A stretch of 38,515 bases of DNA from Candidatus Poribacteria bacterium (GTDB lineage Bacteria; Poribacteria; WGA-4E; UBA9662). Of this stretch, positions 2,351 to 12,488 are shown piece by piece (the stretch's first letter is position 1; the number at the start of each line of letters is the position of its first letter). The stretch is from assembly GCA_002709695.1 (NCBI GenBank), contig PAQF01000086.1:1-38515 (forward strand), written 5' to 3'. The position numbers and the translations under genes were made by a program. Under the pieces are notes generated by a model. That model was not told the origin of the DNA. It did not search any database and worked only from the letters and a program-made list of their open reading frames with translations.

Positions 2351-3173
2351 GAGGGGACGTCTGAGGTATTATTTGAGTATTGAATGACTAGTTAATTACA
2401 TAATTCAAAAGGAGAGGGATATGTTTTCTCAGGTTTGCAAATTTGTACTAATTTTCGTATTTGTGTTATCAAGTTTAACTGGGGTTTCAAACGCTAAGGT
2501 TGGGACCGCAAGTATACATAAAATTGCTATCTTTAATGAAAAAGCAAGTTGGACAGATGCGGCAGCCGCAAAAAAAGCCACGGATTTTATCATGAAAAAC
2601 GTCGATTCTGTCTCAAGCGAAATTAAAGTATATAGTGATGCCGATATAGCAGGTTTTGCTAAAGAAAATACTGATGATGGAAACTTGGATATTATCATAA
2701 CCTTTGGTTATTTCCCTGTTAGTCTTTACACCCCCGGGAATAAACAAAAAGAGGACTCTCTCGCAGAGCAGTTCCTAGAAGGTGGGGACATGTTTATTAA
2801 TACTGCTGATTACATATTTTATGTCACGCAGGGTGGTGGTGCTAATGGTGCTGACGGACTAAAAACTATTACCGATAGTACCTTTGACATGTGGGGGGAT
2901 GGTAACTCTTCTAAACCTACAGCTGATGGTAAAAAATACACTCCCAGTTTAAAACCGGCTCCAGCAGTGCGACCATTCAAGATTGACCAAATAAAAGCAG
3001 ACAAAAATTGGGAAATCGAGGTTGTTTTTGGTGACAATAATGGTGGTGGCGGCAGTATGGCCGATCCTATCATTATCCGTAATAAAGAACACAATGGAAG
3101 AGTCTGTATAGCTTTGCAAACTGGTGGAGCTCATCCAAGAGGTGAAGTTATACACGAAATCATTGACAATTAT
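1778..3173. repeat. direct repeat: homogenised core of the two paralogs (1778-2260 and 2691-3173)
   Basis: The two copies align without gaps at a constant offset of 913 bases over 483 bases. In the final 370 bases I count about 20 differences (roughly 95% identity). Most are third-position changes; the few amino-acid changes are in the ...IIIHNKGH / ...IIIRNKEH segment. Upstream of the block the genes share only scattered similarity. The sharp change in identity at both edges is what recombination between tandem copies leaves behind. Confidence 0.85.
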
Positions 3174-3257
3174 CTGAAATTGAATGTAATAGCTGTTGAT
3201 CCCACAGCAAAAATTGCTGTAGCTTGGGGAGATATTAAGAGAGGTTCTTTCAAGTAA
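2421..3257 (+). CDS. secreted paralog B, conserved protein of unknown function
   Basis: This 278-residue exported protein has a signal peptide over about residues 1-25 and is the tandem partner of the gene ending at 2350. The start is clear: AGGAGAGGG stands just before the ATG at 2421. Residues from about 115 to 245 are almost identical to paralog A, while the signal peptide, the first 80 mature residues and the last 30 differ clearly. That pattern suggests gene conversion of the core rather than a simple recent duplication. A strong hairpin terminator 30 bases after the stop closes the pair. The function is unknown, and the ThuA-like fold guess is weak. Confidence 0.75.
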   Translation: MFSQVCKFVLIFVFVLSSLTGVSNAKVGTASIHKIAIFNEKASWTDAAAAKKATDFIMKNVDSVSSEIKVYSDADIAGFAKENTDDGNLDIIITFGYFPVSLYTPGNKQKEDSLAEQFLEGGDMFINTADYIFYVTQGGGANGADGLKTITDSTFDMWGDGNSSKPTADGKKYTPSLKPAPAVRPFKIDQIKADKNWEIEVVFGDNNGGGGSMADPIIIRNKEHNGRVCIALQTGGAHPRGEVIHEIIDNYLKLNVIAVDPTAKIAVAWGDIKRGSFK

Positions 3258-3556: not shown

Positions 3557-4261
3557 ATGGACTTTATTGATTTAAGCGATCAGGATTTTACTCAAGCTGA
3601 ATTGTCCAATCTTGATCTGAGTCATACAAACTTGGCTAACAGTAAACTTTGTCGAGCTGGACTTTTTAAGTCGAATCTATACGCTGCCAACTTGAAGGAA
3701 GCTAATTTAAGCCACTCTTATGCAATTGGCTTAAACTTATGTGATGCAAAATTAAACAACGCTGAAGTTTCCTATGCCAACTTGTATCAGGCTAACTTGA
3801 TTGGCACTGATCTTCGAGGAGCAAATTTGCTAGGTGCAAATCTACGAGGAGTGGACTTCGGTGATATGGATATTTTACTCTTATCTGAAGCTAATTTCCA
3901 AGGTGTTCTGTACGATTTAGACACTAACTTTCCTAATGGTTTTGATATTAGTCAGTTTGATGCTCATTTTATTGGCAAGGATACCAATTTGCAGTCGGCT
4001 GATCTTCGCAGTGCCTATCTGCGTAATGCTGATCTGCGCCACGCTAATTTGAACAATGCTGATTTGCGTAATTGTAGCTTGCAACATGCGGATTTGCGGT
4101 ACGCTAATTTGAACAATGCCAATTTTGACAGTTTCGTTGATCTTAGTAATGCTGATCTGCGCCATTGTGATTTCAGTAATACAGACCTTTCACAAGTGTT
4201 AATGGATAACACTAATTTCGATGAATCAACTAAATTTCCTACCGATTATATCCAGCCGTAG
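3557..4261 (+). CDS. pentapeptide-repeat protein
   Basis: This 234-residue protein consists almost wholly of A(D/N)LXX pentapeptide repeats, which form a right-handed quadrilateral beta-helix. Two repeat blocks are seen, residues about 5-105 and 143-220. They are split by a non-repeat insert containing YDLDTNFPNGFD, a loop also typical of cyanobacterial members; a related sequence, FDESTKFPTDY, ends the protein. No signal peptide or enzymatic domain is present, so it is probably a cytoplasmic structural or binding protein. Some relatives (Qnr, MfpA) mimic DNA and protect gyrase, but nothing here singles out that role. The start ATG lacks a strong ribosome site. The repeats create mirrored open frames on the opposite strand that are not genes. 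Confidence 0.85.
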   Translation: MDFIDLSDQDFTQAELSNLDLSHTNLANSKLCRAGLFKSNLYAANLKEANLSHSYAIGLNLCDAKLNNAEVSYANLYQANLIGTDLRGANLLGANLRGVDFGDMDILLLSEANFQGVLYDLDTNFPNGFDISQFDAHFIGKDTNLQSADLRSAYLRNADLRHANLNNADLRNCSLQHADLRYANLNNANFDSFVDLSNADLRHCDFSNTDLSQVLMDNTNFDESTKFPTDYIQP

Positions 4262-10907: not shown

Positions 10908-11897
10908 ATGAAACGAAGAAAGTTCGTTAAAATTATCGGTGTGACGACTGCTGGTATTGTTATGCCGGTTCGTTATATTAATGCAGAAGGGCTGCCGGAA
11001 TTTGACCTGAACCCGGCTACTATGGTTACAGAAAATGATGACTTTTATATTCTTCAAATCGATAAAGCCCCTGAAATCAAAGTAGATCATTGGCAAATGG
11101 CTGTAACTGGTTTGGTTACTAAGCCGGTTTTTCTAAACTATCAGCAACTCCTGAAAATGGAACCAGTTACTACGCAAAGAACACTAAAATGCATAGGAGA
11201 TCCGATAGGTACAGAACAAATGAACAATGCGGAATGGACAGGTGTTCCATTGCGAGATGTACTCGAGGATTCGGGCATCAAACCAAAAGCGAAAGTCGTT
11301 GTTTTTCGTTGTGCTGATGGTTATCATACCGCTGTGCCGCTTGAACGGGCAATGCGAAAAGAAGTCCTTTTAGCTTATAAGATGAATGGTGAGGATTTGC
11401 CAGTTGAACATGGCTATCCAGTGCGTCTTCTCAATCCAGGGCATTATGGTGTCAAGAATCCAAAATGGATTATGAATGTCATGTTGGCGGAGAAACATGT
11501 TGGTTACTGGGAAGCCCAGGGTTGGGATCCAATCGCACGGGTTAAGCTGGCGACGGTCATCAGGTCTCCGGAGAATGGCACCGAAATTAAAGCTGGATCA
11601 GTTTGTACGGTTAGTGGCGCGGCATTTGATAGTGGAAATCACGGCGGCATCAAATCTGTTGAAGTTAGCGTTGATGGGGGAACTAACTGGGAACCCGCCG
11701 AGATTTGGGCCAAGGATTCACCTTTGACTTGGTATCTCTGGAAATATACTTGGCAAGTAGCTGAACAACCAGGTGAAATCGAGATATGTGCCAGATCAAC
11801 GGCCAACAACGGGACTATTCAAGAAGTAAATGGGTTTGATGCTGAAAATGGTGGAGCGACTGGCTATCATACTATTGATGCTGAAATTCAGACCTAG
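10908..11897 (+). CDS. sulfite-oxidase-family molybdopterin oxidoreductase, exported
   Basis: This 329-residue enzyme has an N-terminal sulfite-oxidase-type molybdopterin domain (about residues 30-215) and a C-terminal Ig-like Mo-co dimerisation domain (about 220-325, with KSVEVSVDGGTNW). The Mo-ligating Cys is C95 in TLKCIGD. The segment PVEHGYPVRLLNPGHYGVKNPKW is the conserved cofactor-binding stretch. The start MKRRKFVK followed by a hydrophobic run is a twin-arginine-like signal, as expected for a protein exported already holding its cofactor. Family members oxidise sulfite (SorA, SoxCD) or act as other oxidoreductases. The rhodanese next door hints at sulfur chemistry, but the substrate is unproven. 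Confidence 0.85.
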   Translation: MKRRKFVKIIGVTTAGIVMPVRYINAEGLPEFDLNPATMVTENDDFYILQIDKAPEIKVDHWQMAVTGLVTKPVFLNYQQLLKMEPVTTQRTLKCIGDPIGTEQMNNAEWTGVPLRDVLEDSGIKPKAKVVVFRCADGYHTAVPLERAMRKEVLLAYKMNGEDLPVEHGYPVRLLNPGHYGVKNPKWIMNVMLAEKHVGYWEAQGWDPIARVKLATVIRSPENGTEIKAGSVCTVSGAAFDSGNHGGIKSVEVSVDGGTNWEPAEIWAKDSPLTWYLWKYTWQVAEQPGEIEICARSTANNGTIQEVNGFDAENGGATGYHTIDAEIQT

Positions 11898-12023: not shown

Positions 12024-12488
12024 ATGATAAAGAAAAAAACAATTTTTTGTTTGGGTTTGATGTGGGGTTTTACAGTCTGTATTTTTGCTCAAGTTGAACC
12101 TAAACGGATTAGCAATGCAGAAGTAAAGCAGATGCTCGATCAGAAAAAGGTGGTTACAATCGTTGATGTCCGTGGAATTAATGCCTACAAAGCTGGACAT
12201 ATTCCGACTTCAATATCAATGCCATCTGGCGAAATTTCCTCACGGCATAAGGAACTTCCCAAGAATGAACTTATTGTCCTCTACTGTAGCTGACTAGCAG
12301 AAGGTTCAAGTGTCCGTGCGGCACAAATGTTAGCAAAGAATTTTGGTTTCAACATGGAATTATTGAAAGTGCTTAAAGGAGGGTTTCATGCTTGGAGAGA
12401 TGTGGGATACCCAGTTAGCCAAGGGTTGGTTGTTAAACCAAAAGGTAAACTAATTACACTATGGTCAAAAATCAGATCAAAGTACTAG
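12024..12488 (+). CDS. exported rhodanese interrupted by TGA, candidate selenoprotein
   Basis: Reading from the ATG at 12024 (GGAGG upstream) gives a signal peptide, then a rhodanese domain with TIVDVRGINAYKAGHIP. The active loop LYCS (residues 86-89) is followed by TGA at codon 90 (12291-12293). The same frame then stays open for 64 codons to TAG at 12486 and encodes the rest of a normal rhodanese, including EGSSVRAAQML and KGGFHAWRDVGYPV. In related proteins the motif reads YC-x-C-x-x-E, so the TGA replaces a conserved Cys. That is how selenocysteine is usually found, and a fitting hairpin follows. The full product would be 154 residues and periplasmic; without recoding only 89 residues result. 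The alternative is a recent nonsense mutation. No selenocysteine machinery is in this window. Confidence 0.7.
12294..12333 (+). promoter_or_regulatory. SECIS-like hairpin directly after the in-frame TGA
   Basis: The 40 bases after the TGA can form a two-part hairpin. The lower stem pairs CTAGC (12294-12298) with GTTAG (12329-12333). The upper stem pairs GTG-CC (12310-12315) with GGCAC (12320-12324), leaving one bulged U at 12313 and an apical loop GUGC at 12316-12319. In the E. coli fdhF SECIS a bulged U and a loop G-U pair are the SelB contacts, and the loop lies a similar distance from the UGA; here it is 22 bases. The internal loop is large and the stems short, so this is suggestive only. 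Confidence 0.5.

Follow-up and report, generated by a model that had tools for sequence, protein, structure and literature searches.

A predicted selenoprotein rhodanese of Poribacteria and its orthologs with a Sec-Ser-Sec active site

The rhodanese-fold gene at positions 12024-12488 (forward strand) of the window, the 38,515-nucleotide stretch of Candidatus Poribacteria DNA analysed here, is predicted to encode a selenoprotein, with selenocysteine (Sec) inserted at an in-frame TGA of the active site (probability roughly 0.93). The gene had been proposed as a candidate selenoprotein in a preliminary description of the window; the proposal was supported by a TGA in 14/14 orthologs, by the presence of the Sec machinery, by dN/dS and by a conserved hairpin. 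The call was decided by this evidence from the family and not by the hairpin of the window alone.

The frame reads MIKKKTIFCLGLMWGFTVCIFAQ...LIVLYCS-TGA-LAEGSSVRAA...KY-TAG (beginning MIKKK) and gives a protein of 154 residues with TGA read as Sec. The TGA (12291-12293) is codon 90, directly after ...LIVLY-C88-S89, and is followed by 64 open codons up to the TAG at 12486-12488; taken as a stop, it would leave a product of 89 residues only. The read-through protein was matched by the Pfam Rhodanese model PF00581 over residues 31-125 (E 1.9e-17), a stretch that spans the TGA, and its score of 64 bits against a gathering threshold of 22.2 places it among the rhodaneses. The TGA after LYCS, the 64 open codons and the rhodanese motifs continuing to the end of the frame, all noted in the preliminary description, were confirmed by the reading of the frame and by the Pfam match spanning the TGA. 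An AlphaFold model (mean pLDDT 82.7, core >90) matched PDB rhodaneses, among them single-domain ones such as 3nhv. The active-site motif is YCS-U-xAE. By ungapped alignment to BH2092 of Bacillus halodurans, Cys88 (codon TGT, 12285-12287) falls on the canonical catalytic Cys of rhodaneses and Sec90 two residues beyond it. Signal peptides of the window protein and of its orthologs were called by eye; a signal-peptide-like segment (MIKKKTIFCLGLMWGFTVCIFAQ) is encoded at 12024-12092, and one ortholog (L036) carries a lipoprotein-type signal (SFGC) at its N-terminus. The product is likely an exported single-domain rhodanese, export being read by eye from the N-terminus.

Orthologs were searched for in 85 genomes of the phylum Poribacteria, and each was then read in frame on the proper strand. 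Fourteen genomes, that of the window included, had a TGA inside the rhodanese of the best match; they span several families and classes. The TGA occupied the column of codon 90 in all 14 orthologs. This column had been described as that of a conserved Cys; the TGA was found there throughout, and the canonical catalytic position lies two residues earlier. Four orthologs (the window gene, L024, L025 and L036) read Y-C-S-U, and the other ten (L026-L035) read Y-U-S-U, encoded as TGA-AGC-TGA with the two UGAs six bases apart. This double-Sec (USU) state of most orthologs was absent from the preliminary description. The Cys codon at the first position was TGT in 4/4 Cys orthologs, one base from TGA. 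On a protein tree built with the motif masked, the Cys/Sec label cost two changes, and the order of gain and loss was not fixed by the tree. Residues 87-90 (Tyr-Cys/Sec-Ser-Sec), Glu93 and Ser96 were invariant among the orthologs.

Relatives with a YC-x-C site, expected from the preliminary description, were not encountered: no Cys-only ortholog was found among the 85 Poribacteria genomes. Those Cys rhodaneses of Poribacteria that were read have other loops (YCDGIGC, YCAAGLRS, YCGGETRG and YCRGPYC) and were rejected as Cys-only orthologs. Four plasmid rhodaneses were ordinary ones, and the viral contigs searched held no relative of the window rhodanese. For phyla outside Poribacteria, genome contigs were scanned once with a single sequence, a search sensitive to close relatives only. 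Two further genes were recorded during the reading. A second rhodanese (L098:1365-1694, G017:C33) has two in-frame TGAs (YUGUPGE) and is without a signal peptide; it is 41% identical to the closest family members over about 100 residues. In L035:1354-3336 (G005:C867) a single frame joins the USU rhodanese to a HEAT-repeat-like region and to a domain resembling thioredoxin/peroxiredoxin (DWUGYC); the domains were assigned by eye, and the product is a predicted three-Sec protein.

A SECIS-like hairpin lies at 12310-12324 (forward strand), with the stem GUGUC/GGCAC formed by 12310-12314 and 12320-12324, the loop CGUGC at 12315-12319 and 21 nt between UGA and loop. It was kept in 14/14 orthologs as a 5-bp stem, GUGyC/GGCAC (or GCGCC/GGCGC), with a 5-nt loop NG[G/U]NN at 21 nt from the UGA. 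In 14 distinct sequences 100% of the stem cells were paired, and two pairs were changed on both sides; in L035 and L036 two synonymous changes (AGT to AGC, GCA to GCG) have replaced a U-A pair by C-G. The hairpin of L098 has the same positions and UGA distance, with a flipped C-G pair. The covariation score was reached by 2/500 shuffles, in a set of related sequences that overstate the independence of the counts. Within the gene, synonymous codon identity peaks at codons -1 to +10; it was 0.79 there and 0.46 over the remaining codons. AGC was fixed at -1 (14/14), GAA at +3 (14/14) and GCG at +9 (13/13), whereas three or four codons were in use for conserved Ala and Gly elsewhere in the gene. 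In the USU genes the first UGA lies 27 nt from the loop, so that one hairpin can serve both UGAs.

The bSECIS model requires a stem of 4-16 bp, a loop of 3-9 nt with G in one of its first two positions, a distance of 16-37 nt from the UGA and an MFE of at most -7.5 (PMC13188914). The window hairpin falls within this model (5 bp, CGUGC, 21 nt, -7.6 kcal/mol), with a thin margin in MFE. The hairpin conserved in the 14 orthologs agrees with it in stem length, loop G and distance. The folding check proposed in the preliminary description had a divided outcome: the window hairpin agrees with the model, but by itself it is ordinary (MFE -7.6 for 45 nt, fold z-score -0.16, a single G-U pair), and of all the TGA trinucleotides of the window about 5% fit the same model. 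Its strength (z-score -0.16, about 5% of TGAs) was rejected as evidence, being within chance; the hairpin goes beyond chance because it is conserved across the phylum. A stricter filter of our own (at least four G-C pairs) missed it because of its G-U pair. The structure had been drawn earlier with a bulged U and a GUGC loop. A hairpin 3' of the TGA is present in all orthologs as a 5-bp stem with a pentaloop, but the bulged-U, GUGC-loop form is not conserved: the window sequence allows it, but its last pair is lost in 4/13 distinct orthologous sequences, whereas the plain stem holds in all.

The genome of the window (G000) is a 5.2-Mb draft, 96% complete. All four genes whose search had been proposed were found in it: selA (577 bits), selB (344 bits) and selD (360 bits), each above its curated cut-off, and selC, a tRNA-Sec with anticodon TCA directly after selB. 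SelB and tRNA-Sec were both present in 13/14 ortholog-bearing genomes, the exception (G024) being 80% complete. The presence of SelB was useless as a discriminator, since it was found in 76/85 genomes of the phylum. The selD of G000 (L011, about 2455-1394, minus strand, G000:C48) has its own in-frame TGA (TCGUAAK), with a hairpin AGTCC-GGTC-GGACT (GGUC loop) 3' of the UGA, and G000 therefore holds at least one further recognisable selenoprotein gene.

The same data were weighed against two readings in which no Sec is inserted. A recent nonsense mutation could have turned a Cys codon into a stop, leaving a young pseudogene; a single base separates TGT or TGC from TGA, and the window hairpin alone is within chance. 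This account is nevertheless very improbable, and is in effect refuted by the shared TGA together with the selection data: 14 genomes of several families and classes share the TGA, and a second in-frame TGA occurs in ten orthologs without decay. Between the window gene and its ortholog from the same genus (L024, 80% identical) dN/dS was 0.222 before and 0.214 after the TGA; purifying selection is thus equal in both halves, and a decaying 3' half is excluded. No further disabling mutation was present in any ortholog read. The earlier statement that the downstream half shows no decay agrees with both results. Genome-wide recoding of TGA as an ordinary amino acid is more improbable still. The frame would be open under any code with TGA as a residue; however, TGA is the terminator of 10/36 main genes in the window, and the rhodanese gene itself ends naturally in TGA in L026, L029, L030, L032, L033 and L034, while the internal TGA is sense. 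TGA is not generally reassigned. The in-frame TGAs are moreover confined to active-site positions, in the presence of a full Sec system.

The genes next to the rhodanese were compared across the orthologs. In the window, a molybdopterin oxidoreductase (Oxidored_molyb) with a twin-arginine-like signal is encoded directly upstream (10908-11897, forward strand); it adjoins the rhodanese in the window's genus only, and is a possible partner. In genus g7 (L030, L085, L087 and L088) the gene directly after the Sec rhodanese encodes a FAD protein resembling mercuric reductase/lipoamide dehydrogenase (GDCLWTGCVPSKA). This FAD disulfide oxidoreductase is a possible reductant of the Sec rhodanese, though it looks cytosolic. 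A conserved operon partner was sought and none was found across genera, the FAD protein being limited to g7 and the molybdopterin enzyme to the window's genus. Elsewhere in the window, two adjacent genes (1529-2350 and 2421-3257) encode secreted proteins of near-identical sequence along much of their length, as after a recent tandem duplication, and 3557-4261 encodes a pentapeptide-repeat-like protein with A(D/N)LxxA units.

From the genome comparison we strongly infer that SelB and tRNA-Sec decode the UGA of codon 90 as Sec, steered by the hairpin 21 nt downstream. The mature protein would lie beyond the cytoplasmic membrane, and its active site would read Tyr-Cys88-Ser-Sec90-x-Ala-Glu93. Cys88 would take sulfane sulfur or attack a disulfide-type substrate, and Sec90 would resolve the intermediate through an S-Se bond; the redox pair Cys88/Sec90 (Sec/Sec in relatives) would perhaps free sulfide from a persulfide, and a diselenide may form in the Sec/Sec relatives. 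On motif and fold, we give about even odds to the hypothesis that the window protein is a thiol/selenol redox enzyme or persulfide reductase and not a plain thiosulfate:cyanide sulfurtransferase. It could instead be a selenoprotein that works as a classical rhodanese, moving sulfane sulfur (from thiosulfate or polysulfide) outside the cytoplasm, perhaps together with the molybdopterin oxidoreductase, with Sec90 only tuning Cys88. The rhodanese fold, the canonical place of Cys88 and the adjoining oxidoreductase in the window's genus are in keeping with such a role, which we regard as doubtful: the second position is Sec in all orthologs and the first Cys or Sec, which argues for a redox pair of two residues, the neighbour is conserved only within the genus, and the active-site loop is unlike those of ordinary rhodaneses. 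The scores with the thiosulfate sulfurtransferase models were far below their cut-offs (GlpE 31.8 bits vs 102, PspE 16.2 vs 102).

Selenoproteins of the CxU rhodanese kind are known, namely as NF041203 (rhodanese_LYCAU), 'rhodanese-like domain-containing protein form 3', which is listed in PMC13188914 and, under the name COG0607 form 2, in PMC9312934. NF041203 was the best curated match for 14/14 orthologs and shares with the window protein the rhodanese fold, the single domain and the Tyr-Cys-x-Sec motif, YCSU of the window protein aligning within a match to model positions 8-124 of 126. The window protein, however, reached 74.1 bits where the curated cut-off is 115, and it was therefore not filed as a member; the cut-off was passed by none of the 85 Poribacteria genomes. 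Judged only by its motif, the window gene would count as a new, divergent CxU rhodanese. The group is set apart from that kind by its Sec-x-Sec site, Sec being present at both positions in 10/14 orthologs. A UxU rhodanese is not listed in the 2026 inventory, and 'UxU' occurs in neither PMC13188914 nor PMC9312934; in the other selenocysteine literature searched the term occurs in two papers only, one about SELENOP, a eukaryotic plasma selenoprotein, and the other about gene expression in Salmonella. The two-Sec rhodanese form appears to be undescribed in the mostly open literature that was covered, with UxU sought within Poribacteria.

Other known systems are alike in part. The Prx-like thiol:disulfide oxidoreductases, predicted selenoproteins with UxxC or UxxU (PMC13188914), can carry Sec at both positions of the redox pair, as in the USU rhodaneses, but they have a thioredoxin fold, two residues between the Secs and no rhodanese. 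The TsoB rhodanese/DsbD fusion (NF045694, UxxxxU) combines a rhodanese domain with two Secs, and its profile weakly matched 12/14 members; it is, however, a fusion of about 572 positions with another motif, and the window protein scored 22.6 bits, far below the cut-off of 805. BH2092 (PDB 3nhv) is the closest solved fold (E 9.5e-10), and its catalytic Cys aligns with Cys88, but its active site is YCWGPAC, without Sec and without a CxC pair there.

Taken with some reserve, the comparison makes it fairly probable that Poribacteria possess a family of exported rhodaneses in which Sec-Ser-Sec is the usual site, encoded by two UGAs six bases apart, with a single hairpin downstream for both. Sec-x-Sec would then be seen in a rhodanese for the first time, and the site would probably cycle through a diselenide; the lineage of the window would have Cys for the first Sec, one base away (TGA/TGT). 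A selenoprotein group would thereby be added to a phylum that is named together with selenocysteine in only two papers of the literature searched. The UxU relatives would provide natural Sec/Cys pairs at one site in one family, and one SECIS for two UGAs six bases apart would be a testable case of closely spaced Sec decoding in bacteria. The family would also make testable what Sec-x-Sec can do beyond Cys-x-Sec.
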